Origin: a virus
Length of the DNA: 24,208 bases
IMG/VR virus record: IMGVR_UViG_3300022927_000116
Location: 1 to 24,208 of that record
Direction: 5' to 3' (one strand)
The position numbers and the translations under genes were made by a program. This document shows, piece after piece, positions 236-20,488 of the stretch; positions within the stretch are counted from its first letter, which is position 1; each line of letters opens with the position of its first letter. The notes beneath the pieces are model-generated. The model was not told the DNA's origin. It ran no database searches and worked only from the letters and a program-made list of their open reading frames with translations.

Positions 236-3200
236 CTATTTCTCCTTCAGAGATTTGATTTCAGTTTGCAACGCCTCGATCTGAGACTGTTGTTCTTTAA
301 TGGCCTCGATAAGATAGCCTACTATATTACCATAAGCCACAGACTTGAATTCACCTTCGTTGTTTACGAGTTCTGGGGCCACTTTCTCAAGCTCTTGTGC
401 AATTACGCCTGACCCTTCTTTGCCGTCCTTAGTGAACGAAACCCCACGCATTTGCAGGACTTTTGAGCCATCAAGAGTTTTGATGTTTTCTTTGAGCCGC
501 TCATCAGAATAAGCAGTTATGTCGCCAGTAGCTTCTACAGTACCGTTAGATCTTATCCATACACCGTTCGCGTTTAATGAATTTTTAACATGAAGACCGT
601 TACCAAGTACAGATCGAATAACCATATAGTTGGTCGAGGTATCGCCGTATATATAGTTTTCATAAGCGTAGTTGGTGCCAGAGTACACATTTATAGTAGC
701 ACCGTCATATACTTCTAATTCCGCTGTCGCGCTGGCAAGTTGGACTACATTAAGCTTTGAAGTGCCGTTTGGATTTAAGTAGTAGTTTGTATCGTTAGAA
801 TCGTAGAAGATGGGAGAGTATAAATAGCGGTTTGAGTCTATGACCTGAGAGCCAGACATATACAACCCAGTGCCCAGATAAAGATTCGCAAACTGTTGTG
901 TTGAAGTTCCTAGAGAGATGATGTCGTTTGAAATTGCTCCATTCCTGACTGGCCCGATAACGCCTGCGGTTGGGTGGAATCGTAAGCCGCTACCTGACGT
1001 CGTGCCAGATTGGATGTACAGGCTGTCCCCACCCTCAGAGCCAAGGCTTCCAACCGCAACGCCATCCTTGTTTAGCTCAAGGATATTCCCGTTATCGGTA
1101 GTACGGTTAAGGCGCATGACTCTTGCTGAATCTGTTGTAACTTCAACCGCCTTGCCGTTTTCGTAAAGAAATCCTTCTGTGGCAAATGTTGTTACACTTT
1201 TCCCAACAAGCAAGTTGCCAGAGCTATCCACCCTATACCGTTCGCTTCCATTTACCTTAAACGACATGTGGTCAGAGGTATGGTCGTAGACTATTGTGCC
1301 TCTGTTATTGTCATCCGTATCGCCAAGCCAAATTTGAGAAGTTCCTGTGTTTGAACCAATAATCTTAGCCGCGCCTGATAGGTATAGGTCTTTGAAGGCT
1401 GCGTTGGTATTACCAAGGTCAACATAGCCATTTCTGGCATTGCCTGACGCATCTGCAGGATAAATTTTGTCTGAACCGTCTACAAAGCGGAGCGTTGTGT
1501 CATCTGTACCAATATAAAGGTCGCCGCCTTCAGTACCAATCGACCCCACGGGTGTGCTTTGCTTTCTAAAAGTGATTATTGCCCCGTCATTTGCATTGTT
1601 TTTACCTATCTCTAATGCAGAACGGTTTGATGTTGTGGCAATTTCAAAATGATTATCAGAGTCAACCCAACCACAACCACCCTGTGCAGAATAGTTTGAT
1701 GCAACATTTGCTACCGTATTTGATACCATCCAGTCGCCAGCGCTATTGATGCGCATACGTTCTGTGCCGCCAGTGGCAAAAGCTAGTTGACCTGAGCCTG
1801 ACGTAGCATCAATAGTGTGTATAGCGCCTAAGAAAATTCCTGAATCACTGCTTGTAAATTGTAAACCTCTAGCGCCACCATCAGATGAAGCGCCAAAATA
1901 TGCGTAAGCGCCTGAAGCATCTGTTCTTGCTACATGAAGTTTAGATGTTGGACTAGCTCCAATACCAACATTGCCGCTGTCATCAATCACTAGCCTTTGG
2001 TTGCTACCCAATGTACTGCTTTCTGCAATAACAAAAGACGTAGCTGATCTGTCAAGACCTATCGTGAATTCTCTGGAGCCTTGAGTTTCAAATGAAATAA
2101 CAGCATCGTCACCTGTCGCAGTGCCTTCATTGTGAATATCAATCCCCAACTGTGATCCACCACCGTCTGCTTTAACAGATAGCTTTTTTGCTGGACTCGC
2201 AGTTCCCAGACCTAGCGACTCAGCAGAAGCGTCCCAGAAGAACTTTGCGGTGTTTGAGTCATCGTAAAATCTAACATCTCCAAGGCCGCTAACTGTTAAA
2301 CTGTTTCCATAATATCCTTTAACGCCAAAAGCACCTGCCGCATCAATATTAGATACATGCGCTGAGTTATCTACTTGCAAAGCATAAGTATTATTCCCTC
2401 TTGATGTCTCTCTGCCTGTTAATAACAACCTAGTTGTGGCTGCTTGCCACTCAAAAGACGCAGTAGTGCCCGTGTCTTCAAACAGCGACACATCGCCGTT
2501 ATTGGCAAAATTAGCGGCTAGTTTGTGGGACGTTGCGCCATCAACATAAATTCTTACGTCATCGCCAGCACGTAAATCTAGCTTATCTCCTGTTCCTGCA
2601 CCTGCAGAAACCTGCATATTTTGCCCAGTATCACCTTGTATATTTCCATCAAGGTTCAACCCATCAGCCGTGACTGTGCCTGTTACGTCTATGCCTGTGG
2701 CTGTGGTGGCTAGTTTGATTGCATCTGCATATAAAAGTTTAGTTGCACCGCCTTCAACAGCAGTTAAATAGTCTTGGGTGTTATCCGAGTTGCGAAGGTA
2801 AAGGTTCGTTGCGTTTACAACAAGCTGCCCAGTGCCGTTCTCCTTGATATAACTATTAGAACCATCATGATAAATCTGTAGGTCAGAGCCAGTACCAAAG
2901 ACTGCCTTAGCACTATCACGAAATAACAAGGAATCAATAGACGAAACCCACTCCATATAGCGACCAGATGTATCGCCATAAAATCTAAAGTCATCTCCAG
3001 CACCATCTGCACCAATACTGATAAACCCACCTACAGAAGTAAGCCCGTCCGTGGTAATGCTTCCTGTAACATCTATGCCTGTGGATGTGGTGGCTAGTTT
3101 GGCGGCGTTGTTAAAATATAGTGTTGTGGCACCACCACTTGTTGCAAACAGGTTTTTTACGCCAGATGCGTTTCCTATTTCTATGTTTGCACCGTATATT

Positions 3201-5020
3201 TTTAAGTCGCCAGTTCCGTTATCAATAATGTAACTGTGGCTACCTGAGTGATATAGTTGTAGGTCATCAGATGCGCCAAAGGTAGCCTTGTCATTATCAC
3301 CTAAAGCAATGCCACCGTTTGCTGTAATCTCGCCAGAGGCTGTGATTGCTCCAGATGAGATGGTTCCAATATTCGTTAGATTACGGCTTGAGTCTATGAT
3401 GGTGGTGCCACCCACTTGTATAGGGTTTGTGGCATCAACGAAGTTCGCCGCCCCTTGAAAGCGAGCTAACCCATATACTTTCAGGTCGTAGTTGCTATCT
3501 GCCGCGCCCCCAATCGCAACGTCTCCAAACGACGATGCACCTGTGCTAGTAATAGCCCCAGAGGAGATGGTGCCGACGGAAACAATATTATTGCTAGTCA
3601 TATCAAGAGTGCCGTTGTTTATAGACACTCCGTTGCTGTTGACTACCAATTTTTGAGACCCGCCGACGACTATCCTTGCCGTATTCGCCGCATTGAATTG
3701 GAAGTAGGTATCCAAATCTCCTGCGTGCGCTAGAACGCTGGCGATATTTAAATCGCCTGCAACATTAACCGAGCCACTGCTAGTAATCGCGCCTGACGAA
3801 ATTGTCCCTACCGATATATTAGATCCGCTTGAGTAATAACCAGCAGATGCGTGATTACCCCACCCATAAGCTGTGTTCCATTCCGAAGAATTACCTCCAG
3901 TAGCGTATACCGTAGCAGCTTGGATGTTGGCGTAAGTAAAGGACGCGTGTGATGTATCTATGTAAATACTGGCGTCGGGTTCTGGCGTATAACTATCATA
4001 AAACTTCCAACGACCATCGTCAGCGTCACGGAAAATACCAGTGTGTGCGTAGGTACCGTCATTGTAGTTTCCGGCGAAGCCAAGGTCAGGATTGGTGTTA
4101 GTGCTACCGTCATTCAGATAAATCATGTTATCTGCGATAGCCAGATCTTCAGCATTGATGGTTGTAACGGTACCAGATACAGTTAAGTCCCCAGTAACAG
4201 TTACGTCCTGAAAACTTACGTCGGTACCTAACTCAGCTATATTCGCCTCTGCTAGAGTACGGTTTTCCCACACACTTGCAGTTTCGTTCCACTGGAGGAT
4301 CTCGTTATCAGCTACGCTGGTAATCAGTACATTGTGAAGCTCTTCAAGTTCCCAGCCATTGTTGACGTGGACAAGAATGGAGCCTTCAGTAGCATGTGAC
4401 CGTATAACCCAACCGATGTGCACTAGATGACTAGGTGATGTAGGCTGCGTAGCTGTGAACGTGCCGTTGGTTCCAAGATAGATGGGTACGCCTTCCGTAA
4501 ATCCAGAAGTATCAAGCCCACGAACAAAACCAGCCGTTGTTACACGCCCAGTGCTATTGTCGTTAATTGTCTCGGTTACAACACCCACAGTTGGTGCTGA
4601 GCCTAGTTCTGTAGTGGCGTCAGCTATATCAACCGTTAACTTGTTGCCAGACGCGCCCGTGGTACGTACTACTCTACCATTAGCGAGCGCGGCACCGCTC
4701 TCGTTCTTAGCCACAAAACCAAGTTCTTGGCCAAGTTGGTACGTTACATCGGGGCTAACTACGAGATCGATGGTCTCGTCTTCAGTGTTCCAAGTAAGCG
4801 TGCCTTGATCACCAGTTCCACCCGTTATCTGGATAGACGCTGCTGATATGTCTGCTGCACTAGAGCCGCCCGTTATATTGATCGAGTCGGCAGTAATGTC
4901 GCCAAAAGTGGGGGAGTCACCAGACTGATACTTGTCAGCGTTAAGATTGGCAAAGTTATCATCCACTTCTTCATTGGTTAGTGGTGTTCCTTTGACATTG
5001 CGCAAAGTAATATCAGACAT
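236..5020 (-). CDS. Giant tail fibre/tailspike with C-terminal S74 intramolecular chaperone
   Basis: A 1594-residue receptor-binding fibre is the most likely product. The N-terminus (MSDITLRNVKGTPLTNEEVD) is of the type that attaches fibres to the tail. The body is Gly/Ser/Thr/Asp-rich and repetitive, with recurring GTISSGAIT, DLQ(L/I)YH-x-GS-x-SYI and TGIDVTG-x-(I/V)T units typical of long beta-structured phage fibres. The last 90 residues carry the Peptidase_S74 signature: SDERLKENI with the candidate nucleophile Ser1505, then GVIAQELE and VAYGNIVGYLIEAIKEQQ, and a final coiled coil. In characterised homologues (endosialidases, L-shaped fibres) this domain trimerises the fibre and then cleaves itself off near that serine. 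The start has an AGGAG Shine-Dalgarno just upstream. Host-binding function is inferred; no depolymerase motif was recognised. Confidence 0.92.
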   Translation of the reverse strand: MSDITLRNVKGTPLTNEEVDDNFANLNADKYQSGDSPTFGDITADSINITGGSSAADISAASIQITGGTGDQGTLTWNTEDETIDLVVSPDVTYQLGQELGFVAKNESGAALANGRVVRTTGASGNKLTVDIADATTELGSAPTVGVVTETINDNSTGRVTTAGFVRGLDTSGFTEGVPIYLGTNGTFTATQPTSPSHLVHIGWVIRSHATEGSILVHVNNGWELEELHNVLITSVADNEILQWNETASVWENRTLAEANIAELGTDVSFQDVTVTGDLTVSGTVTTINAEDLAIADNMIYLNDGSTNTNPDLGFAGNYNDGTYAHTGIFRDADDGRWKFYDSYTPEPDASIYIDTSHASFTYANIQAATVYATGGNSSEWNTAYGWGNHASAGYYSSGSNISVGTISSGAITSSGSVNVAGDLNIASVLAHAGDLDTYFQFNAANTARIVVGGSQKLVVNSNGVSINNGTLDMTSNNIVSVGTISSGAITSTGASSFGDVAIGGAADSNYDLKVYGLARFQGAANFVDATNPIQVGGTTIIDSSRNLTNIGTISSGAITASGEITANGGIALGDNDKATFGASDDLQLYHSGSHSYIIDNGTGDLKIYGANIEIGNASGVKNLFATSGGATTLYFNNAAKLATTSTGIDVTGSITTDGLTSVGGFISIGADGAGDDFRFYGDTSGRYMEWVSSIDSLLFRDSAKAVFGTGSDLQIYHDGSNSYIKENGTGQLVVNATNLYLRNSDNTQDYLTAVEGGATKLLYADAIKLATTATGIDVTGTVTADGLNLDGNIQGDTGQNMQVSAGAGTGDKLDLRAGDDVRIYVDGATSHKLAANFANNGDVSLFEDTGTTASFEWQAATTRLLLTGRETSRGNNTYALQVDNSAHVSNIDAAGAFGVKGYYGNSLTVSGLGDVRFYDDSNTAKFFWDASAESLGLGTASPAKKLSVKADGGGSQLGIDIHNEGTATGDDAVISFETQGSREFTIGLDRSATSFVIAESSTLGSNQRLVIDDSGNVGIGASPTSKLHVARTDASGAYAYFGASSDGGARGLQFTSSDSGIFLGAIHTIDATSGSGQLAFATGGTERMRINSAGDWMVSNTVANVASNYSAQGGCGWVDSDNHFEIATTSNRSALEIGKNNANDGAIITFRKQSTPVGSIGTEGGDLYIGTDDTTLRFVDGSDKIYPADASGNARNGYVDLGNTNAAFKDLYLSGAAKIIGSNTGTSQIWLGDTDDNNRGTIVYDHTSDHMSFKVNGSERYRVDSSGNLLVGKSVTTFATEGFLYENGKAVEVTTDSARVMRLNRTTDNGNILELNKDGVAVGSLGSEGGDSLYIQSGTTSGSGLRFHPTAGVIGPVRNGAISNDIISLGTSTQQFANLYLGTGLYMSGSQVIDSNRYLYSPIFYDSNDTNYYLNPNGTSKLNVVQLASATAELEVYDGATINVYSGTNYAYENYIYGDTSTNYMVIRSVLGNGLHVKNSLNANGVWIRSNGTVEATGDITAYSDERLKENIKTLDGSKVLQMRGVSFTKDGKEGSGVIAQELEKVAPELVNNEGEFKSVAYGNIVGYLIEAIKEQQSQIEALQTEIKSLKEK
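2678..3270 (-). repeat. Diverged internal duplication in the tail-fibre gene
   Basis: Two blocks of about 220 bp, roughly 380 bp apart (about 2678-2890 and 3062-3270), encode the same succession of motifs: DLQ(L/I)YH-x-GS-x-SYI, then GGAT-x-L, then KLATT-x-TGIDVTG, then (I/V)T-x-DGL. The DNA is also similar: the segment ending in TGTGGTGGCTAGTTT occurs at 2678-2716 and at 3062-3100 with few differences. A looser triplication of GTISSGAIT lies at about 3330-3830. This fits growth of the fibre by internal duplication. Confidence 0.75.
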
Positions 5021-7514: not shown

Positions 7515-10500
7515 TTAGTCTGACGCAAACGTTAGAGGTAAGCGGGAGCCGATAGTCTTAGTAATATCAAACCCGTTATCAATCAACTTATCGACAGTTT
7601 CTGCAGTAGGGCCAGCTAACGGTAGCAGAGGATTCTTACCCCACTCAGAGTTCTGATGCATCATACCAGCTACAGCGAACGGGCCCATGAACCCAGACCG
7701 GTCAAATATCTCAACAAAGTACTGACCCCAGTCCATGTTATCCGACCTGAAGTATCTATCCGTGGCTACAGCTCCGGGTATTATAGAAGCCAACCCGTAC
7801 TTAGCGTATTCTCTAAGTTCAAGCGCAAGCATTGCTAGCGGCATAGTAGCTATCGCTGTCAGTGCTAACACAGCCGTAGTAGCTGTTAATTGTGGCATGC
7901 CTGTGCCTGCACCTTCGCTGGTTCGGTTCCGCATCTCACGAAGAACGCCGCCTACAATAACCTTCTGGTATGCATACATAAAGGATTTGAGCTGCCATAC
8001 CAACGCCCATCTCGGGTCAGAGGCCCAGATAGGGCGCTCTGCTGCATTTGGGCGGAGGATAGATGACTCTACAAACCGTTGAAGCGCCTTAGTAACCTTC
8101 TTACCTTCAGGAGTATCAAGGCGTCGGTTTGATCTATCCCACTTCTTAACATCTTCCGCTGTAAGGCCGAGTTCCTGTAGGTATCGCTCAGAACGCGGGT
8201 TGTTGAACTTATTTTCGGCGTGACGAATTATGAACTGTACGCCCATACCTGCTGCAAACTCTCGCGTAAACTTGGTGTACCAGTTGAGCCCGATAGCGTT
8301 GAAGTACCAGTCAGACATCTTGCGGACTTTCGGGTCCATAAAGTCTTGTTCGGCTTCAGTTATCCAAGTGTTCGCTACTACTTCGCTCGTTATAACGCCT
8401 ATATCACGGGCGAACTGCTGCGACTCTGCTCTGTTCTTTATCGATGCGCCTATCTCTTTGAAGGCCGTGACAAACGTATCAAAGTTAAGTTCTTTAGAGT
8501 TTATAACTGGGCCAGCAAGCTCCGGTAACGATGCAAGCGTAGCAAATGGTAGTATCGTAACGAACTGAAGAAACTGGCCGTAGCTATTAACTTTGCGCCA
8601 CACTGGGCCAATCGGATTTGACTGATAGCCTAAGTAAGTAGCTATAATGCCTTCTACTTCTGCCCTATCACGTTCGCTGAGCTTGGCAAGTTCTGGCTCA
8701 AGCATGTCTACGCCATTCGCGTCTTTGGTGTGAGCGTTCCACTCAACCCGCGTAGCAACGTGACGAACGTAGCTTACTAGAGCTTCTTTAGGATCTTGTA
8801 GAAAGCCCTGTTCCTGCAGCAGCTCTCGTGGGACGTTAGCTGTAAGCTGACGCGCTTGCTCGACGCTGCTAGCTGGGTTAGTTGCGTTAAAGTCTACCGG
8901 ACCGTCGTTCTGTATTGAGTGGTTAAACTCACGCAACCTTTGCACAGCTTCTCTGGCGCGGGCTGCAGTTATGCCGGGGTTATTAGCCACGATGATGGAT
9001 ATAAAATCATCTTCCCGCTCTACTGCTTCCATCAAATTAATGACCGTCGGGAAGAAGTCTTGCTGACGGCCTATGTTCGTATTCGACGGCTCGATGTAGT
9101 CTACATAGATATCGTCTAGAAACTTACGAACTGATTGCGCCATAGGTGATAGCGACGCTGTCGGCTCGCTAGTAGCAGCCTCTGCTATAGCTGCCTGTAC
9201 ATTCTCGTCGGCTAAACTACCGACGTCTTTTTCAAACTTGTTTTGCAAGTCGTCTACTTTACGAGCCTTTGCACCTAAGAACCCTAAATCACCGCCGCCA
9301 GCTTTGTCTTGTGAGCGGACGTAAAACATATTCGCCAGCTTATTACCAGCTATCCCACGTAATACGCCGTCAGCCGTGCGTACAAACTTCAACAAGGGGC
9401 GAACGTTTGGATTGTTCGCTACGTCTGCTATCTTCTTACGCCAGTGAGCAGCTAGCGCCTCGCCACCTTGTTCTACAACAGCTCGCTCCATCTCACGGGC
9501 CAGTTGTTTTTTAGCGAACGCTGTTTCTTTGAACGTCTTGCCGTCACGTCTTGCTTCAAGCACAGCGTCCATAAACTGGTCGAACTGCTGATCAACTTTA
9601 CCAGTAAGACGGCGCTTGAAAATACTATCCATCGACCTGTACAAAGACTTAATCTTATCTACTAGCTGTTTGAAGTGACGCTCTACAAGCGACTTAGCCT
9701 GCTTACGTACAAATCTGCGGCTCGCCCACTTGGCTACTTGGTCGGCATACCACTCATCAAACCCACGTTCTTCATTGTACTTAGTGACGTAACTTTGATA
9801 CTCCTTGTCTTTCTTATAAGTCTTAAGCAGAGCGGCACGTAACGCTCGCTGATCTAAAGCACCATTCATGTGCTCGGCGAACATAACGTGGCCTAGCTCA
9901 TGGCCAGCAGACAAAGCGGTTTGGAGTGGATTGGCCTGTTCACGAAGCATAATAACAGGTCTGCCATTCAGTCCAGTCACAGACCGCCCGAACAACTTAG
10001 GTCGCGTTCTAAAATCTTGAATAGCATTACGAATAGTACGATAGTCAGCTTCTGTTGTGAACGTAGCACGCAGCTGTTCGTCGGACGCTGCTAACAGTTG
10101 CTCTACGTTAAAAATCAACGGCTCAACACGTAGCTTGATAGTGCTAAGCACGTCAGCCACAAATGCCGCTACATCACTATCAGCGAACTGTATTTGTTGC
10201 ACTGGCGCAGCACCAGATGTGCTTGGTGCCCTGCCGACTCTTCTATCTATCCCAGCAGTGTCGTCTCTGGGATCGCCCATCATTCTTTCTATTTCTGTCT
10301 GCCCTATCTCTTCGACCGGCATGTCATTAGGGTCAAATTCGCCGCCTATACGAACTACGTCGTAGTTTTGTCTTTGGCCGTAAAAACGCTCGTAAAAACG
10401 CTCGAACGCATCTGCGGCTTCTGGCGTTACATTGCGCTGCATAGCAACAATGTTGTCCGTTCGTGTGCCATCTTCGGCCACTTCGTACGCTATAACAGTA

Positions 10501-12914
10501 AGCCCTTGAGAAGGGGCTACAGAAGAACGTGGCGCTAGCAGCTCTCGTAGGCGTACGTTAGTGCCTTCTGCTCGGCCAGCTACAACATTCATAGCGTCTG
10601 GCAAGCGCCCTTGCACGTCGTAAAGAGATGTACCGTTTACGAGAACGTCGTACCCTTCAAGGCGAAGGTCCGCTAGTATTTCTTGCAGTCCTTTCTGAGA
10701 CGATTCGAACTGGGTATCACCTTGGAAAGTACTATCACCACGTTCTTGTACTAAGCGTCTACCGGCGTTGGTTAAGTCAACCATGTTGACCTTGACGGCT
10801 TTACCGTCTGGGCGAACTACTACTACCGGGGAAGTCCTAGCAAACTTACTACGTCTTGCTTTGTTGACGGCCTCTGCAACAAACTGCGGGCTACTCTCGG
10901 TAGGGTCTACGGGTAGCCCTTCGCGTATCAGCCTATATTTGCGTACCAAATCGTATTTACCGCCGCCTTGATCTATTTTGACATCGGCCTGTTCTATCCT
11001 AACGTCTGCCGTAGGGTTGGCGATTTGTTCATCGACTGCTTTTTGTAGCAGCGCTTCTGTCATGCTGCCAAAGAACGGATCGTCCCAGTCCGTCTCGCCG
11101 AAAGTAGCCTCGTACTCTGCACGAGCGCTGTCAGTATTTGCAAACGTCTCGTTCGGATCGCGCCTAATATTAAACGTACCAACTTCAACTGTTTCTATAT
11201 CAGCCTCTTGTACGTCAGTTCGCTCTGACAGTTGTGCTTTAAGGCTGGACAGCTCTTCTGAGTCTATGTCACGTACTACTGGGCCTTGCTCACGCTCAAC
11301 GCGCTTGTTTCGTTCTTCTAGTGCTTTTTCGACTGTAGTCTGACGGATGCTGCCGCCTTCTGGCATAATGCGGGTTGCAGCGCCAAATGCGTCTGCTAAA
11401 CCAGCCGAGTCCGTTACTTCTTCAGATACAACGCCTCCATCGCGATCAACAACCTGCACTACTGTGTCGCCGGGCTGAGCTGCGTTCTTAGGTTTGCTGT
11501 AGCCTAAAGCATCTGACAGTGACTGATCGCTAGCGTTTGACGCAACTACTGACTCAACTACGTTTTTATTCGTAGATACAATAGTGCCCCTGCCGGGTAC
11601 AAAAGCTGCGTACGCAAGCTCTCCGTTGACCGTTATCTCTGTCGGTTTGCCTGTACGGGCTTGGTACTGCGGGGTATCTCCAGCGATCCACACCGCTTCT
11701 TTGGAGCTGGTCTCGTCAACCATAGCGCTAAGCTGAGCATTAATGTCAGCCTGTGGCTCTGGGGTCGTGTACCCAGACATTACATCACCGTACTGCTCGG
11801 CGTTAACCTGCTGGTCAAACTGCTGCGTCTGCCCAGAATCAATATAGCGTCTAGCTTTATCGATGACGTTTGCTACAGCGGTTATCGGGGCCGAGTCTGC
11901 TATAGCGTCTCTGTTAGATAGTACGCTACCGGCTGCACCGCCGAGTGCACCTACAGCGCCACCACTAAAGAATCCAGCGAACGCTGCCTCGCCGAGACGC
12001 ATCGCCGCATCCTGTGCAGTGAACGAGTCATCCATAGATGCTCTATTGGCAACAGAAATAGCCTCTTGTACCGTCTCTGTACCGGCCTCTATAGCAGCGG
12101 ACCTGCCAGCAGTAGTCGCTATATCTTGCGCCAGTTGTGCAAATAGCGATCGATCTTTTACTGATCTGTTCCTTGCCACCGTAGCTACAGCCTTTAGGAT
12201 AGCGGCTTCACCGCCAGCGCCGACTGCAGCAATTGGAGCGCCAACTAAAAACGCCCGAAACGCTTCGTCCGTGTTCAGATCCCGCCCAGAGGCAAGCGAC
12301 TCCCTAGCACCTCCTGCAGACGCAGATACATACTCGACGCCAAACGCGCCTGCAAACGCTCCTTTCTTTGCGTAGTCGTACGCTGCTTGAGCAATAAGCC
12401 GCTCGTCTGGAGTTGCTGCGCCAGCCGCTGTGCGCTCAAGAGAGTCTCTGACTATTCTATCAGCGGCTTTCCTAGCTGCTTTTTTGCCTACAGATTTTGC
12501 TATAACGCCGCCGATGCCGCCACCAGCAATGGTAGTTAAAGCGAACGGTACTGTCTGCCCTGAAAGTTTACCAATTTGAGTTATAAATCCTTCTACGGTA
12601 GGTTCGTTGTAGAACTCCTCAAACGACTGTGTGCCAGACGTAGCGCGTGCAGCAGCCTGCTCTGACTGCTCAGCTAAGCGGATGTTCTGAGCTGCAGCTT
12701 CTTCGTCGCCAGTAACTACGTTTAGCAGTCCTTTGAAATACTCGACGTCGGATGCCATGTTTTCAGCCCCAGCAGCGGCTCCTACTGCTACGGCTTCGCC
12801 TATAGTACTCGGGGCGGGGGCGGGGGCACTAGCTTGCCCCGTTACCAGATCAAGCGCGTTTGTATCCTCTGCACCGTCGTATTGAAGGAACTGCTTAATC
12901 GGGTCAAATGCCAT
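7515..12914 (-). CDS. Giant internal virion (ejection) protein with HELGH zinc-peptidase motif
   Basis: This 1799-residue protein sits where T7-type phages carry gp16, the largest ejected internal protein. The N-terminus (MAFDPIKQFLQYDG) leads into an Ala/Gly-rich part with hydrophobic stretches near residues 121-141, 218-238 and 308-331. A metallopeptidase motif, GHELGHVMF, places the zinc ligands at His1005 and His1009 with catalytic Glu1006; FDEWYADQV about 45 residues later offers Glu1054 as a possible third ligand. The C-terminal third has further hydrophobic stretches (about 1446-1468 and 1675-1697) and resembles the 'large polyvalent protein' class. No lysozyme or transglycosylase motif like that of T7 gp16 was recognised. 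Its ATG directly abuts the preceding TAA, with AGGTAGG upstream. Role in DNA ejection is inferred from size, order and context. Confidence 0.85.
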   Translation of the reverse strand: MAFDPIKQFLQYDGAEDTNALDLVTGQASAPAPAPSTIGEAVAVGAAAGAENMASDVEYFKGLLNVVTGDEEAAAQNIRLAEQSEQAAARATSGTQSFEEFYNEPTVEGFITQIGKLSGQTVPFALTTIAGGGIGGVIAKSVGKKAARKAADRIVRDSLERTAAGAATPDERLIAQAAYDYAKKGAFAGAFGVEYVSASAGGARESLASGRDLNTDEAFRAFLVGAPIAAVGAGGEAAILKAVATVARNRSVKDRSLFAQLAQDIATTAGRSAAIEAGTETVQEAISVANRASMDDSFTAQDAAMRLGEAAFAGFFSGGAVGALGGAAGSVLSNRDAIADSAPITAVANVIDKARRYIDSGQTQQFDQQVNAEQYGDVMSGYTTPEPQADINAQLSAMVDETSSKEAVWIAGDTPQYQARTGKPTEITVNGELAYAAFVPGRGTIVSTNKNVVESVVASNASDQSLSDALGYSKPKNAAQPGDTVVQVVDRDGGVVSEEVTDSAGLADAFGAATRIMPEGGSIRQTTVEKALEERNKRVEREQGPVVRDIDSEELSSLKAQLSERTDVQEADIETVEVGTFNIRRDPNETFANTDSARAEYEATFGETDWDDPFFGSMTEALLQKAVDEQIANPTADVRIEQADVKIDQGGGKYDLVRKYRLIREGLPVDPTESSPQFVAEAVNKARRSKFARTSPVVVVRPDGKAVKVNMVDLTNAGRRLVQERGDSTFQGDTQFESSQKGLQEILADLRLEGYDVLVNGTSLYDVQGRLPDAMNVVAGRAEGTNVRLRELLAPRSSVAPSQGLTVIAYEVAEDGTRTDNIVAMQRNVTPEAADAFERFYERFYGQRQNYDVVRIGGEFDPNDMPVEEIGQTEIERMMGDPRDDTAGIDRRVGRAPSTSGAAPVQQIQFADSDVAAFVADVLSTIKLRVEPLIFNVEQLLAASDEQLRATFTTEADYRTIRNAIQDFRTRPKLFGRSVTGLNGRPVIMLREQANPLQTALSAGHELGHVMFAEHMNGALDQRALRAALLKTYKKDKEYQSYVTKYNEERGFDEWYADQVAKWASRRFVRKQAKSLVERHFKQLVDKIKSLYRSMDSIFKRRLTGKVDQQFDQFMDAVLEARRDGKTFKETAFAKKQLAREMERAVVEQGGEALAAHWRKKIADVANNPNVRPLLKFVRTADGVLRGIAGNKLANMFYVRSQDKAGGGDLGFLGAKARKVDDLQNKFEKDVGSLADENVQAAIAEAATSEPTASLSPMAQSVRKFLDDIYVDYIEPSNTNIGRQQDFFPTVINLMEAVEREDDFISIIVANNPGITAARAREAVQRLREFNHSIQNDGPVDFNATNPASSVEQARQLTANVPRELLQEQGFLQDPKEALVSYVRHVATRVEWNAHTKDANGVDMLEPELAKLSERDRAEVEGIIATYLGYQSNPIGPVWRKVNSYGQFLQFVTILPFATLASLPELAGPVINSKELNFDTFVTAFKEIGASIKNRAESQQFARDIGVITSEVVANTWITEAEQDFMDPKVRKMSDWYFNAIGLNWYTKFTREFAAGMGVQFIIRHAENKFNNPRSERYLQELGLTAEDVKKWDRSNRRLDTPEGKKVTKALQRFVESSILRPNAAERPIWASDPRWALVWQLKSFMYAYQKVIVGGVLREMRNRTSEGAGTGMPQLTATTAVLALTAIATMPLAMLALELREYAKYGLASIIPGAVATDRYFRSDNMDWGQYFVEIFDRSGFMGPFAVAGMMHQNSEWGKNPLLPLAGPTAETVDKLIDNGFDITKTIGSRLPLTFASD

Positions 12915-15206
12915 TTACCTACCTGCATTTCGAGTGGCTGCATTAACGACTATATCATAGACTGATTTGTCGAGATTGAGTAGATCAGTTGCAGATATAG
13001 CTTCATCCGTTCTAGCGCCAGTCTCTGTCAGGTAGTAAAATCTAGTTGGTCTACCAGACGCGTCTGTCTCCATCTCTACACGGCTTAAGTCAAAGTCAGT
13101 AGCACCGGCGGTATCTACGGCGTCTGGACGGAAGAAGCTGTAGAACGTCTGTGCGAACCCCCCTTCTTCTTCGGCAGCATAACCGGCTAACACAAGACTA
13201 ACGCCAGAGTTGAGGGCGGACTGGTACTGTCGAGCTTCCGCTTCAGATGTAGAAGAAGACGCTTGTTGTAAAAGCGGCGCAAGGACCGTTCTAGAAAAGC
13301 GTTTAGCGGGCTGAGCGCCTATGTTGTTCTCTGTGCCGTCTTCGCCAAAGAACACCTTATTGCTTTCTTGGATAAATGTAGACGCTATCTTAGAAGCGGC
13401 ATCTACCCTTGCTTGTTCAGAAGCGTTCGCATCTGCTGCGTCCTTAGTAAGGTTTCTTCTAAGTTCAGCAATGCGTACGTTTAGAGTGTCTCTGTCTATC
13501 TGCTGCTTACCGGCTTCTTGCGCAGTGAGGCTCAGAGTGCCGGTCTCTTTCAGGTTGCTCATCTCTTGCCGAGCGGCATCTCGAGCCGTCTGATCAGGAG
13601 CAATGACGGACAGCAGGGCTCGCGTGGCCAACTGCTCGCGGGTAGGCAGCTTAGCTACGTCTCGGATGCTAGTAACGCCAAACTCTTGTAGACGCTGACG
13701 CATAGTACTTATTGCCTCAGCGGAGAATGGTAAGTTGCCGTTGTCTACAGCGGCATCCACTTCTTCTGGGGTCATACCTTCAACGCGGGCAATAACTTGA
13801 TTCTCTAGCTGCTTGTACGCGTCGGTGCTCATTACAGGTGTACGCATGCCGAGCGACTCTTCAAGCTTGGACTGTATGTTCATCTTCTCATCGATCTGAG
13901 ACTGCCAGTAATCTTTTCGGACAGCAGCAGCTTTGTCACGGCGAGCTGTTAGGTCTTTGATTTCTTTATTAACGGACTCTAAAGACGCCTTGTTTACCTG
14001 TTCGATATATCCGCGGCGATCATCGTCTTTCACGTTGATCCGCTCTTGTATACGTCGTTGAAACTCTGGCGACTTATTACCCTCCATTGTCGCTTGTAGT
14101 TCAGCAATATCGTTATCGTACTTCTCTATCCGTTTTTTAGCCCTGTTTAGATCTACTTCAGAAGCCGTCATAAAGCTTTCGCCGGGTACTCTTACACCTT
14201 CACTGGCTTTAGTAGTAGGGCTACTGTACTCTACCAACTCACCGCGAATATCTAACACAGGCGGGATTTCAATCCTCATACGGTTAGCCGCCTCTGTAAG
14301 AATAGACCGTCTTTCCTCGTCTGTCTCAGCAGTAGCTAATACTCGTCTGAACGCGCGCGATGCTGCGGGGTCTTTCTGAGCGTCAAGAGCTGCGACAACG
14401 CTGCCTTGCAGCTTCACGTCAGCAGTCTGCGCATCGATATCGGCTTGGTTAACGCCCATTTGCGCTTGATACGCAGCACCTCGGTTAGTTGCAGCGCCGT
14501 CCATAACTTGAAAGCTGACCCACTCACTGCTAAGGACGCTGGCTGCTTGGGCCGGTGTTAGCATCATTGTGTTTTCGTTGGGGTCACTACCACCTTCTTC
14601 AGTAAGAACGCCCATCTCGCCGTTATCATACTGCCCTACGATAGATAGTAGGCCTGTTCTTGGGTCTCTATTTATGGCTGTATAAGTGAACCCTTCTGGC
14701 CGAGGAAGGTTACTGTTATTCAAAACTTCAAGGGCCCACCGATCTGCAGCCGAATCACCTTCCGCTAAAGCCGCGGCTACAGCCGTTGTGTCCAGCCGTT
14801 GTGCATTCTTTGGGTCAATAAAACCTTGTTTACCGGCATTATTATATAGCTGACCAGTAAGTAAATTGCTCTGCTCCTGATCAAATTCAGTCTGCGTTCG
14901 TTTTTCTTGGGCTTGCATTATACCCAGTTCGCCTTCAGCCACTGCTACTTGACGCTGTGATACCCTAATACGTTCTGCGCCTTGAGCCAGCTCTTTTTCA
15001 GCTAGCTTAAAGTTCTCATCAAACTGACGTTTGTTCTCAGCTAGTCTGTCTTTGCCTAGCTTAAGCTCTTCATCGGCCAGCCCGAGTTGGAAGTCCCGCT
15101 GCTGAAGCTCGCGCTCTTTAAAAATGTTCTCTTGGCGTTGCTGCCCAAGCGCCATAGCACCTTGGAAACCAGCTAGTAACCCGCTACCGAAATCTTGTAC
15201 TGCCAT
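12915..15206 (-). CDS. Large coiled-coil internal virion protein (T7 gp15-like position)
   Basis: A 763-residue, highly charged, Gln/Glu/Arg/Ala-rich protein starting MAVQDFGSGLLAGFQGAMAL. Residues about 25-120 look like one long amphipathic helix or coiled coil (many KERELQQ-, LAEKELAQ-type segments), and about 345-450 form another. The rest is mixed with no catalytic motif seen. Its size and its place between a small internal protein with a hydrophobic tail and the giant ejection protein match T7 gene 15, whose product lines the portal and is ejected with the DNA. The similarity is in architecture and order; I cannot show sequence homology. The ATG is preceded by AGGAG, which overlaps the stop of the gene before it. 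A tape-measure protein is an alternative but would be out of place here. Confidence 0.8.
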   Translation of the reverse strand: MAVQDFGSGLLAGFQGAMALGQQRQENIFKERELQQRDFQLGLADEELKLGKDRLAENKRQFDENFKLAEKELAQGAERIRVSQRQVAVAEGELGIMQAQEKRTQTEFDQEQSNLLTGQLYNNAGKQGFIDPKNAQRLDTTAVAAALAEGDSAADRWALEVLNNSNLPRPEGFTYTAINRDPRTGLLSIVGQYDNGEMGVLTEEGGSDPNENTMMLTPAQAASVLSSEWVSFQVMDGAATNRGAAYQAQMGVNQADIDAQTADVKLQGSVVAALDAQKDPAASRAFRRVLATAETDEERRSILTEAANRMRIEIPPVLDIRGELVEYSSPTTKASEGVRVPGESFMTASEVDLNRAKKRIEKYDNDIAELQATMEGNKSPEFQRRIQERINVKDDDRRGYIEQVNKASLESVNKEIKDLTARRDKAAAVRKDYWQSQIDEKMNIQSKLEESLGMRTPVMSTDAYKQLENQVIARVEGMTPEEVDAAVDNGNLPFSAEAISTMRQRLQEFGVTSIRDVAKLPTREQLATRALLSVIAPDQTARDAARQEMSNLKETGTLSLTAQEAGKQQIDRDTLNVRIAELRRNLTKDAADANASEQARVDAASKIASTFIQESNKVFFGEDGTENNIGAQPAKRFSRTVLAPLLQQASSSTSEAEARQYQSALNSGVSLVLAGYAAEEEGGFAQTFYSFFRPDAVDTAGATDFDLSRVEMETDASGRPTRFYYLTETGARTDEAISATDLLNLDKSVYDIVVNAATRNAGR

Positions 15207-18645: not shown

Positions 18646-18675
18646 AAAAGAAGAAACCCCCTCCGAAGAGGGGGT
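18646..18675 (-). terminator. Intrinsic terminator after the capsid gene, UUCG tetraloop
   Basis: On the minus strand an 8-bp stem (ACCCCCTC / GAGGGGGT) is closed by a TTCG tetraloop and followed by TTCTTCTTTT. GC-rich stem, exceptionally stable loop and T-rich tail make a textbook Rho-independent terminator. It starts 7 bases after the capsid stop and ends just before the Shine-Dalgarno of the next gene, so it probably lowers transcription of everything downstream of the capsid gene. Confidence 0.92.
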
Positions 18676-18682
18676 ACCGATC

Positions 18683-19828
18683 TTACTGAGCAGTATCAAG
18701 AGCGATAACACCGAAGTCCTGTACAGAACCGCTGTAGTCGCTGTTGTACTTAGGCTTACGCAAGCCGAAGATCTTGCCGATGCTGATACCAGCTTGGTTG
18801 CCGTAGTCGAAGGTATCTTCAACAACTTCTGGCATACCGATGTCAGCCATAGCAAGAGCCTGAGCGCCGCAGAACAGTGCGCGAGCACCAACTACGGTTG
18901 CGTCTGCACCCCACTTGTAACCGGGATCGCCTGCTTCTGAAGAAGTACCAGTGGTTGCGCCTTCAGTGCTGAACACGTGACGGAACTCGTGGACCATTAC
19001 GCCGTCAACCATCAGGCTTGAAGAACCAGCAAACAATTGGTTGCTAGCACCGCGAACGCCTGCGTTACGTACGTTGGCCAAGAAGTCACTGTCGAGCTTC
19101 AGGTCAGCCATCTGCTGAGGAGTCACGAACAAGTGGAACACTTCGTCGTTGCCTGCGCCACGGATGCCACGAATGTAGTTGTCTTTAGCGTATGCTTTAA
19201 GATCTACAATGTGACGATACTTGAACACGTCTGCAGTAGTGATAGCAGTAGTGTCGCCAGTAGCCAGATTGTTACCATCGATACGAAGGTGACGCGCTGA
19301 AGTAGGAGCAGAAACGTCTGAAGCGAACTCAAGGTCAACCAACTCGTGTCCAGCAGTAGCTGAAGTAGGTCGGAGAGCACCGTTCGTTTTGTGAGTGTAA
19401 GCAACGCCTGACAGAGTCAAGAACGCCAACTGGTCCATACGGTCAGCCATTGCATAAGCAAGTGCGTCGCGTGAGGTCTCACGGAAGTTAACTACTGATT
19501 TCTGGTCAGCCAATCGGCCAGCCAATCGGTTAGCAAAGCGCAACTGATCAAGCTGGATGGTGATGTCGTACGCACGAAGCGCTTCTTCATTACCTTCCAA
19601 AGTGTAGTCGCCAGTGATACCGTCACCAGTCATGTCGGCAAGCAGAGTGATTACTGCACGAGCGCCTTTGTCAGACTTAGTGAGTTCAGTAACACGCTGA
19701 ACCATTGCATTTGAACCAGTTCCTGCAAACTGATTGACGAAAGACATGTTGCGAGCAACACGCCAGAAGTCGCGACTCCACGCGGTAAGCTGTTCTGAAG
19801 TCAGCGACGCAAAGTTAGTATTAGCCAT
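18683..19828 (-). CDS. Major capsid protein, N4-gp56 family
   Basis: A 381-residue HK97-fold capsid protein of the N4-gp56 family. Evidence is the N-terminal MANTNFASLTSEQLTAWSRD, followed by the family signature around residues 67-115: TGDGITGDYTLEGNEEALRA, then DITIQLDQLRFANRLAGRLA. Later parts also fit: FHLFVTPQQMADLKLDSDFL, VMVHEFRHVF, RALFCGAQALAMA and the C-terminal FDYGNQAGISIGKIFGLRKP. Length is typical. The ATG has a near-perfect AGGAGG 5 bases upstream, the strongest ribosome site in the window, as expected for the most abundant virion protein. The gene is bounded upstream by a 255-nt hairpin-rich segment and downstream by a strong terminator, so it may form its own high-level transcript. 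Confidence 0.95.
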   Translation of the reverse strand: MANTNFASLTSEQLTAWSRDFWRVARNMSFVNQFAGTGSNAMVQRVTELTKSDKGARAVITLLADMTGDGITGDYTLEGNEEALRAYDITIQLDQLRFANRLAGRLADQKSVVNFRETSRDALAYAMADRMDQLAFLTLSGVAYTHKTNGALRPTSATAGHELVDLEFASDVSAPTSARHLRIDGNNLATGDTTAITTADVFKYRHIVDLKAYAKDNYIRGIRGAGNDEVFHLFVTPQQMADLKLDSDFLANVRNAGVRGASNQLFAGSSSLMVDGVMVHEFRHVFSTEGATTGTSSEAGDPGYKWGADATVVGARALFCGAQALAMADIGMPEVVEDTFDYGNQAGISIGKIFGLRKPKYNSDYSGSVQDFGVIALDTAQ

Positions 19829-20083
19829 TATGGCCTCCTAATGCGTTCGATATGTATAGTATTGGGCCTAAACCCATTCATAGCCGACTTGTGGAGCGGC
19901 TAACCCGTTTCCTCGTATCGTGAGGTCAACGACCTAGCGCTTATTTACGAGGTGCGACCTCGGCAGGTTTCACGCCTAGTGCAGGCGAAGTATACGTTAT
20001 TTACGTGTTCGACACGACCAGTTATCGTACTGATAAACGAATGTACTTCGTATATTAGCGTCCCTAATAAAAGGACGCAAGGA
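19829..20083 (-). promoter_or_regulatory. Hairpin-rich non-coding segment upstream of the capsid gene
   Basis: This is the longest non-coding stretch in the window. It contains a run of short perfect inverted repeats. Arms, in window coordinates: 19863-19866/19873-19876 (4 bp), 19881-19886/19897-19902 (6 bp), 19923-19927/19931-19935 (5 bp), 19948-19953/19957-19962 (6 bp), 19973-19977/19983-19987 (5 bp), 20004-20008/20012-20016 (5 bp), 20022-20026/20032-20036 (5 bp), 20037-20041/20047-20051 (5 bp) and 20058-20063/20073-20078 (6 bp). Arms of 5-6 bp with loops of 3-10 bases are more frequent than expected by chance. No tRNA cloverleaf or convincing sigma-70 promoter was found. A structured leader for capsid mRNA, a processing region or a small phage RNA are possible. 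Confidence 0.6.
20050..20067 (-). promoter_or_regulatory. Copy B of the shared intergenic motif, possible promoter
   Basis: On the minus strand this reads TTAG-N4-GCTAATATAC, matching copy A at 7129-7146 at the same 14 positions of 18. If TAATAT is the -10, a TTGCGT lies 17 bases upstream as a partial -35 match. A phage-encoded polymerase promoter or an operator is equally possible. Transcription from here would give a leader of about 200 bases carrying the hairpin array before the capsid gene. Function is inferred. Confidence 0.4.
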
Positions 20084-20188
20084 CTATCTGTACATCTTTG
20101 GCTTGGCTTTTGGCTTAGACCGCTTCATGCACTTACCTGCTGCTTTGCACTTTGCGGGGCTTGGGCATCCTTTGCATGGCTTAAACAT
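20084..20188 (-). CDS. 34-aa four-cysteine basic miniprotein
   Basis: A short gene of 34 codons plus TAG. It begins MFKPCKGCPSPAKCKAAGKC and continues with a Lys/Arg/Pro-rich tail ending KMYR. The cysteines form C-x2-C-x5-C-x5-C, a plausible tiny zinc knuckle. It is real rather than chance because an ideal AAGGAG lies 8 bases upstream (20197-20202), overlapping the stop of the 95-aa gene, and because the cysteine pattern with PSPAKC is one I recall from small proteins next to capsid genes in marine phages. The role is unknown; nucleic acid or capsid-interior binding would fit the charge. It lies directly before the hairpin-rich segment. Confidence 0.8.
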   Translation of the reverse strand: MFKPCKGCPSPAKCKAAGKCMKRSKPKAKPKMYR

Positions 20189-20200
20189 AGGTTTTTCTCC

Positions 20201-20488
20201 TTACCATTTAACTTTATCGGCCCAATAGGCCGCCGACATCTTACCTTTCGAGATGTTTTTTGCATGCCGAGCTTTAAAAGACTCCCGTCGCTTACGGTAA
20301 GACGACGATTCACCTTGTTTTTTAGGTGAACCTGACACGCCTTGCTGCCCAAAGCGGATTGTCTTTACCTTATCACCCTCTTTCGCCACTACAACATGCG
20401 ATTTTTTAGGGTGGCTAGGCGTGCGCTTCGGCTTATTGTAGCCTGAAACACCGGCCCTAGCGAGCCGGGGGTCTTTTTTGGACGGCAT
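20201..20488 (-). CDS. Conserved basic protein of unknown function, 95 aa
   Basis: A 95-residue, very basic protein starting MPSKKDPRLARAGVSGYNKP. Conserved-looking blocks are PKRTPSHPKKSHVVVAKEGD, KVKTIRFGQQGVSG, RKRRESFKARHAKNISKGKM and a final SAAYWADKVKW. I recognise this as a conserved phage domain of unknown function, common near portal and capsid genes of marine phages, but I cannot give a reliable domain number. The predicted pattern is a disordered basic start, a short beta hairpin (VVVAKEGDKVKTIRF) and a helix. An AGGAGAGG Shine-Dalgarno is close upstream. It lies between scaffold and capsid genes, so a DNA-binding or head-assembly role is possible but unproven. Confidence 0.85.
   Translation of the reverse strand: MPSKKDPRLARAGVSGYNKPKRTPSHPKKSHVVVAKEGDKVKTIRFGQQGVSGSPKKQGESSSYRKRRESFKARHAKNISKGKMSAAYWADKVKW

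Follow-up and report, generated by a model that had tools for sequence, protein, structure and literature searches.

RNA phages adjust capsid production at the level of RNA, and in phages of the MS2 type the start codon of the coat gene is held in an initiator hairpin, with unstructured sequence adjoining it and ribosomes on standby. Riboswitches of the PreQ1-I type are small H-type pseudoknots in which a short stem is followed by a loop that pairs downstream across an A-rich linker. The tobamovirus upstream pseudoknot domain (UPD), found in the 3' untranslated region (UTR) of plant RNA viruses, consists of several consecutive H-type pseudoknots placed back to back. In phage T4, gp32 acts on the gene 32 leader, a translational operator that carries a 5' pseudoknot (PMC535899). 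The putL element of phage HK022 lies directly behind a promoter, and its first stem holds a minor-groove triplex (PMC9378689). Bacterial mRNAs can be stabilized by base pairing at the 5' terminus, and the RNA pyrophosphohydrolase RppH of Bacillus subtilis requires at least two unpaired 5' nucleotides (PMC3997798). The structured 5' leaders of phage structural genes have been little studied.

The window analyzed here, a 24,208-nucleotide stretch of DNA from a marine phage, carries all of its large genes on the minus strand, so that the transcript has minus-strand sense and the gap at positions 19829 to 20083 is the 5' leader of the major capsid gene. Genes for a P22-like portal protein and a terminase lie upstream of the capsid gene. 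Other large products include a 1,594-amino-acid protein (236-5020, minus strand) with a C-terminal Peptidase_S74 chaperone domain, probably a tail fiber or spike, and proteins of 1,799 (7515-12914) and 763 (12915-15206) amino acids that had no Pfam family match.

A preliminary description of the gap had reported eight nonoverlapping perfect inverted repeats and read them as an array of small hairpins. Exactly eight were recovered (arms of at least 5, loops of 3 to 10), and they are enriched, as had been estimated: 1,000 dinucleotide shuffles averaged 1.6 repeats and none reached 8, a number reached in only 1 of 282 sliding 255-nucleotide stretches of the window. The suggested folding comparison came out positive on both strands, though mildly (z = -2.1 on each, with 5 of 200 and 3 of 200 shuffles folding as well), because the conserved structure is pseudoknotted and nested folding captures it poorly. 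A plain hairpin array was rejected, since what the relatives conserve is an array of approximately six tandem H-type pseudoknots, covering about 160 nucleotides with gaps of 0 to 7 nucleotides between units and beginning directly behind a conserved promoter-like element (Table 1). Half of the repeats coincide with stems of this array. The two adjacent repeats sharing GTAC in their loops, which had been singled out, are not conserved, being confined to this genome and its closest relatives.

Table 1. Positions of features in and around the capsid gene leader of the window
Feature	Position	Strand	Sequence or content	Remark
Intrinsic terminator	18646-18675	-	ACCCCCTCTTCGGAGGGGGT + TTCTTCTTTT	Immediately 3' of capsid gene
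Major capsid gene	18683-19828	-	381 aa	PF13252 Phage_capsid_3; phrog_334 major head protein
Start-codon hairpin	19809-19844	-	Shine-Dalgarno (19834-19839) and AUG (19828-19826)	
Variable hairpin before start site	19864-19875	-		Folds better than shuffles; does not align
Pseudoknot 6	19882-19906	-	S1 GGG:UCC; S2 AGCCG:CGGCU	
Pseudoknot 5	19911-19932	-	S1 (U)CGU:ACG(A); S2 CCUC:GAGG	
Pseudoknot 4	19938-19962	-	S1 CGAGG:CCUCG; S2 CGC:GCG	
Pseudoknot 3	19963-19987	-	S1 CGCCU:AGGCG; S2 GCA:UGC	
Pseudoknot 2	19995-20016	-	S1 CGUG:CACG; loop UCGAA; A-rich linker; S2 CG:CG	
Pseudoknot 1	20017-20040	-	S1 (U)CGU:ACG(A); S2 AUCAG:CUGGU	
Promoter-like element	20052-20080	-	TTGCGT - 17 nt - TAATAT	Conservation among relatives
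Inverted repeats	19881-19902, 19948-19962, 19973-19987, 20004-20016			Conserved S1 or S2 stems of pseudoknots 6, 4, 3 and 2
Inverted repeat	19923-19935			Window specific
Inverted repeats	20022-20036, 20037-20051		GTAC in loops	
Inverted repeat	20053-20069			Inside promoter-like element

Eighty viral contigs carry capsids that are 81 to 97% identical to that of the window, and the sequences ahead of these capsid genes can be aligned between a promoter-like TTG-N17-TAATAT and the start codon. The covariation check on related phages called for earlier was run on a structure alignment of 78 leaders, and the structure passed. The 45 base pairs of the model show 97.4% standard pairing, versus 87.8% when shuffled, with 325 compensatory cells (both sides changed) compared with 94 in the shuffles, and sliding the model partners by 1 to 3 columns lowers pairing to 30 to 46%. 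RNAalifold, run without a given structure, recovered S2 in units 1, 5, and 6 and S1 in units 2 to 4. In an R-scape-like control, the null was built from 60 alignments simulated on the maximum-likelihood tree. Among approximately 29,600 column pairs, model pairs took 13 of the top 16 places (two of the remainder were cross-terms of pseudoknot 2 and one touched the variable hairpin), and four model pairs exceeded every simulated maximum.

In pseudoknot 1, both-side changes occur at all five S2 pairs (98.4% paired), two of which lie above every simulated null, and S1 (98.7% paired) changes from U-A to C-G in five sequences. S1 of pseudoknot 2 is 100% paired, with UA, GC, CG, and AU types and two pairs above every simulated null; its S2 is invariant and thus uninformative on covariation. 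In S2 of pseudoknot 3, 16 sequences have AU in place of GC, with both sides changed, and two pairs rank 13th and 16th of all column pairs, so that crossing helices are separately supported in pseudoknots 1 and 3. Pseudoknot 4 has a 100% paired S1 with both-side changes at three pairs and an S2 that is 95.7% paired, whereas in pseudoknot 5 it is S2 (95.7% paired) that has both-side changes, at four of four pairs, and S1 (93.2% paired) that varies little. The third S1 pair of pseudoknot 6 occurs as AU, GU, UA, or GC, and its S2 is 99% paired and nearly invariant; this unit is not preserved in relatives L012 and L022. Three helices thus rest on pairing and analogy: S2 of pseudoknot 2, which does not vary, and S1 of pseudoknot 5 and S2 of pseudoknot 6, which show little variation.

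Within the model pairs, G-U cells (99) outnumber A-C cells (25), an excess that places the RNA on the capsid-sense strand. Together with the covariation of crossing helices, this excess led us to reject cruciforms or protein-binding palindromes acting at the DNA level. An alternative outer helix offered by RNAalifold (columns 5 to 7 with columns 117 to 119) was also rejected, as it shows no both-side changes, whereas S1 of pseudoknot 1, which uses identical bases, shows five. Identity is 0.77 in the array, compared with 0.52 at third codon positions of the capsid gene. The segment between the array and the start codon is poorly conserved (0.48); its hairpin region nevertheless folds at a mean of -8.9 kcal/mol across relatives, versus -5.9 kcal/mol when shuffled, and lies below its own shuffle mean in 82% of them. 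The structure of the leader is well supported; its function we infer.

A scan of viral contigs with the leader motif alone, blind to the capsid, returned at least 120 stretches. Among the 119 examined, a capsid start lies 69 to 86 bp downstream of the motif in 113, which are all of the testable contigs listed; the other six have at most 100 bp of contig left downstream, and none of the 119 matches placed the motif away from a capsid gene. A covariance model of the leader found exactly one copy per contig in 10 of 10 contigs (37 to 61 kb). The motif had a single exact match in the GTDB genomes, at which the structure is absent, and there is thus no sign of a prophage form. This strict capsid linkage, the covariation, and the conserved promoter-like element strongly support the structured 5' UTR that the preliminary description had listed among its possibilities. 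The other three that it named, an RNase processing site, a packaging-linked element, and a small phage RNA, gained no support from these results and count as bare possibilities. No Rfam family reached its gathering score in the window or in 10 related loci; the best subthreshold match, the tobamovirus UPD pseudoknot, was at chance level (E = 2.2), so that homology between that plant virus element and the phage leader is unsupported. No earlier description of the pseudoknot array was found in the literature searched. We regard the leader as a new RNA family with no match in Rfam, carried by at least 113 contigs. Its general kind is a known one, the structured 5' leader: the conserved structure covaries, lies on the sense strand, and holds a fixed position before one gene. 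Its architecture is unusual. To our knowledge, few bacterial-type mRNAs contain as long a run of tandem H-type pseudoknots.

The same searches bear on two readings of the leader that we consider improbable to different degrees. As a stand-alone RNA, the leader would be cut or terminated off and act in trans or in the particle. It is compact, autonomous, and highly conserved and has its own promoter element, all of which would suit such an RNA, yet its motif was seen only before a capsid start among the matches listed, and no conserved processing signal was seen in the weakly conserved segment that follows the array. Nor does the leader contain a terminator: the minus-strand terminator-like sites all lie after the capsid gene, so that an intrinsic terminator between leader and gene, as in a transcription attenuator, is lacking. 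We regard a stand-alone RNA as very unlikely. Still less credible, to the point of being nearly dismissed, is a ligand-sensing riboswitch in which binding of a small molecule by one or more of the pseudoknots would open the start hairpin. Invariant loops are present, the ribosome binding site is sequestered as in translational riboswitches (Shine-Dalgarno and AUG inside a conserved hairpin), and H-type pseudoknots with A-rich linkers look like small riboswitch folds; the PreQ1-I type shares the short stem and the loop pairing across an A-rich linker. However, loop length and sequence differ from that type, the leader matches no riboswitch in Rfam, and among the matches listed it always precedes a capsid gene and never a metabolic gene.

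The promoter-like element was called in 108 distinct relatives. At the matching place, 94 of them have the form TTG-N17-TA(n)3T; the spacing is 17 in 94 leaders and 16 or 18 in the remaining ones, so that it stays within 16 to 18 in all 108. Some relatives have TTGACA as the -35 element. A mechanical consensus promoter scan did not call the element in the window because its -35 matches at only 3 of 6 positions, and the promoter assignment consequently rests on conservation. The distance from the -10 element to the first stem of pseudoknot 1 is 7 to 13 nucleotides. A transcription start about 7 nucleotides after the -10 element, the standard spacing, would leave the mRNA a 5' tail of approximately 0 to 6 nucleotides ahead of pseudoknot 1. 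Upstream, the element is adjoined by a Cys/Lys-rich small open reading frame (MFKPCKGCPSPAKC...KMYR) that ends at 20084 on the minus strand; a similar copy occurs in relative L027, and most other relatives have different small open reading frames in its place. A 95-amino-acid gene farther upstream (20201-20488, minus strand; phrog_7595) is approximately 70% identical at the DNA level in HMO-2011, SIO1, P12053L, and other podoviruses, an unusual degree of conservation given that those podoviruses otherwise barely match.

At the other end of the leader lies the start-codon hairpin; of 16 gene starts examined in the window, none is as strongly structured as this one (z = -3.0, with the others between -1.5 and +2.3). 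It is kept in relatives, most commonly as GAGGCCA:UGGCUUU, and phages of the KLEP type (below) form it from unrelated letters, for example GUUUUAG:CUAAAAC (mean score of 11.6 versus 8.7 when the upstream sequence is shuffled). It is conserved by structure despite unrelated sequence in L206, L211, and L213. A capsid or coat start codon held in a hairpin, next to unstructured sequence, is common to this leader and MS2-type phages, a resemblance that is functional only, since the latter are RNA phages and have no pseudoknot array.

As the best explanation, we tentatively propose, at somewhat less than an even chance, that the leader is a cis-acting element that shields the 5' end of the capsid mRNA and keeps its gated start site usable. 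Transcription probably begins at the conserved promoter element, a few nucleotides ahead of the first fold, and the leader would then fold into approximately six back-to-back H-type pseudoknots, followed by a short, AU-rich, poorly conserved stretch and the hairpin holding the Shine-Dalgarno sequence and start codon. Such an array would leave almost no free 5' end to RNA pyrophosphohydrolase and RNase E or to 5' exonucleases. It would also prevent the leader from pairing with the stretch ahead of the start site, so that ribosomes could wait there and capture the start hairpin upon its opening. The number of units varies: there are two in the KLEP18-1 group and six in the window, and L012 and L022 lack the last one. 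Such variation is easier to reconcile with a mechanical role than with a single precise binding site; taken with the terminator-free leader, it favors a mechanical role over a precise switch. Against protection, the near invariance in sequence of several loops and of pseudoknot 6 goes beyond the needs of simple armor, the strong start hairpin could signal regulation rather than high output, and the -35 element of the window genome is a weak match.

That near invariance, with a start site sequestered in a conserved hairpin, would also fit a translational operator, with the capsid protein or another phage protein bound to the pseudoknots and the start hairpin so as to repress or activate translation of the capsid gene, and the 5' pseudoknot operator of T4 provides a phage precedent (PMC535899). 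Both leaders have an H-type pseudoknot at the 5' end of a phage mRNA and then a less structured stretch with the ribosome binding site (PMC535899); here, pseudoknot 1, both stems of which covary, follows 7 to 13 nucleotides after the -10 element. The two share no sequence relation; T4 has one pseudoknot where this leader has about six. The T4 operator regulates a single-strand-binding protein and its ribosome binding site is not in a comparable start-codon hairpin, whereas here the site is enclosed and the downstream gene encodes a PF13252 capsid rather than a gp32-type protein with affinity for its own leader. Moreover, pseudoknot 6, the most sequence-constrained unit, is not preserved in two lineages and unit number varies, and we consider an operator unlikely.

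The terminator immediately after the capsid gene is a strong hairpin with a UUCG loop followed by a U-run. It passes a strict test in 68 of 92 distinct relatives, where about one would be expected upon shuffling, and in many of those that fail, the hairpin is present with a shorter U-run. As the capsid gene has its own terminator, its mRNA is probably monocistronic, and the layout is that of a self-contained unit that runs from the promoter through the pseudoknot array, a short variable stretch, and the start-codon hairpin to the capsid gene and its terminator. A terminator at this place, and a leader directly behind a promoter as in HK022 putL (PMC9378689), also raise the possibility of a put-like antiterminator, in which the nascent leader stays on host RNA polymerase and carries it past the capsid terminator into the next structural genes. 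A T7-type RNA polymerase was not found in seven relatives, the contigs of which may be incomplete, under a search that detected the phage T7 control. However, there would be no point in a terminator that is invariably read through, and at least one leader-bearing phage, L047, has none after its capsid gene. The shared feature with put is a structured RNA directly behind a host-type promoter (PMC9378689); put RNA is approximately 70 nucleotides long with two stem-loops and serves early operons, whereas the element described here is a pseudoknot array of about 160 nucleotides and variable extent before one late structural gene. Antitermination is distinctly unlikely.

Paracoccus phage KLEP18-1, whose capsid is 33% identical to that of the window, and ten related contigs have a shorter leader of two units with the common frame UUCG-stem-loop-GGCGUAAAAC. 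Their loop and partner pairs differ between phages and match within each (GCGU:ACGC, GGCAG:CUGUC, GACA:UGUC, GACCG:CGGUC, and GUAG:CUAC). A generic pseudoknot scan was only weakly informative in distant leaders (0.83 units, versus 0.32 in shuffled sequences and 0.56 in coding controls), and a partner-swap test was therefore used instead. With hand-picked loops, the native score was reached in 0 of 20,000 trials for the first KLEP-type unit and in 199 of 20,000 for the second. Partners that differ and yet remain complementary, together with this test, indicate that the pseudoknot has been kept by structure after sequence change.

Some relatives with Phage_capsid_3 capsids lack the leader structure. 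A covariance-model search of the leaders of KPP25, phiA008, and Bcep22-like phages gave no match, and no close capsid relatives of Aeromonas phage phiA008 were found in viral contigs. In L225, L266, L271, and L283, which are still more distant Phage_capsid_3 relatives, units of stem, loop, stem, A-rich linker, and loop complement were seen upstream of the capsid gene, which suggests spread beyond the two groups tested.

A broader and more doubtful proposal is that the leaders represent a new regulatory RNA class of phages, in which H-type pseudoknots strung together as modules gate the production of capsid, either by feedback from the capsid protein or by modifying the polymerase. Phage groups whose capsids are only about 33% identical would share this class, and it would be kept by structure rather than sequence. 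The leader suggests that a tailed DNA phage may control through RNA how much capsid it makes, by protecting the mRNA and gating the start site, as RNA phages do. The modular design, with two to six units and exchangeable stems, makes function directly testable in reporters, and the array may serve as a portable mRNA-stabilizing part. In Burkholderia phage BcepMigl, a gene annotated as a CsrA-like RNA-binding regulator (L086, 2163-2357) lies directly before the leader of the capsid gene, which suggests another RNA-level control of capsid expression.
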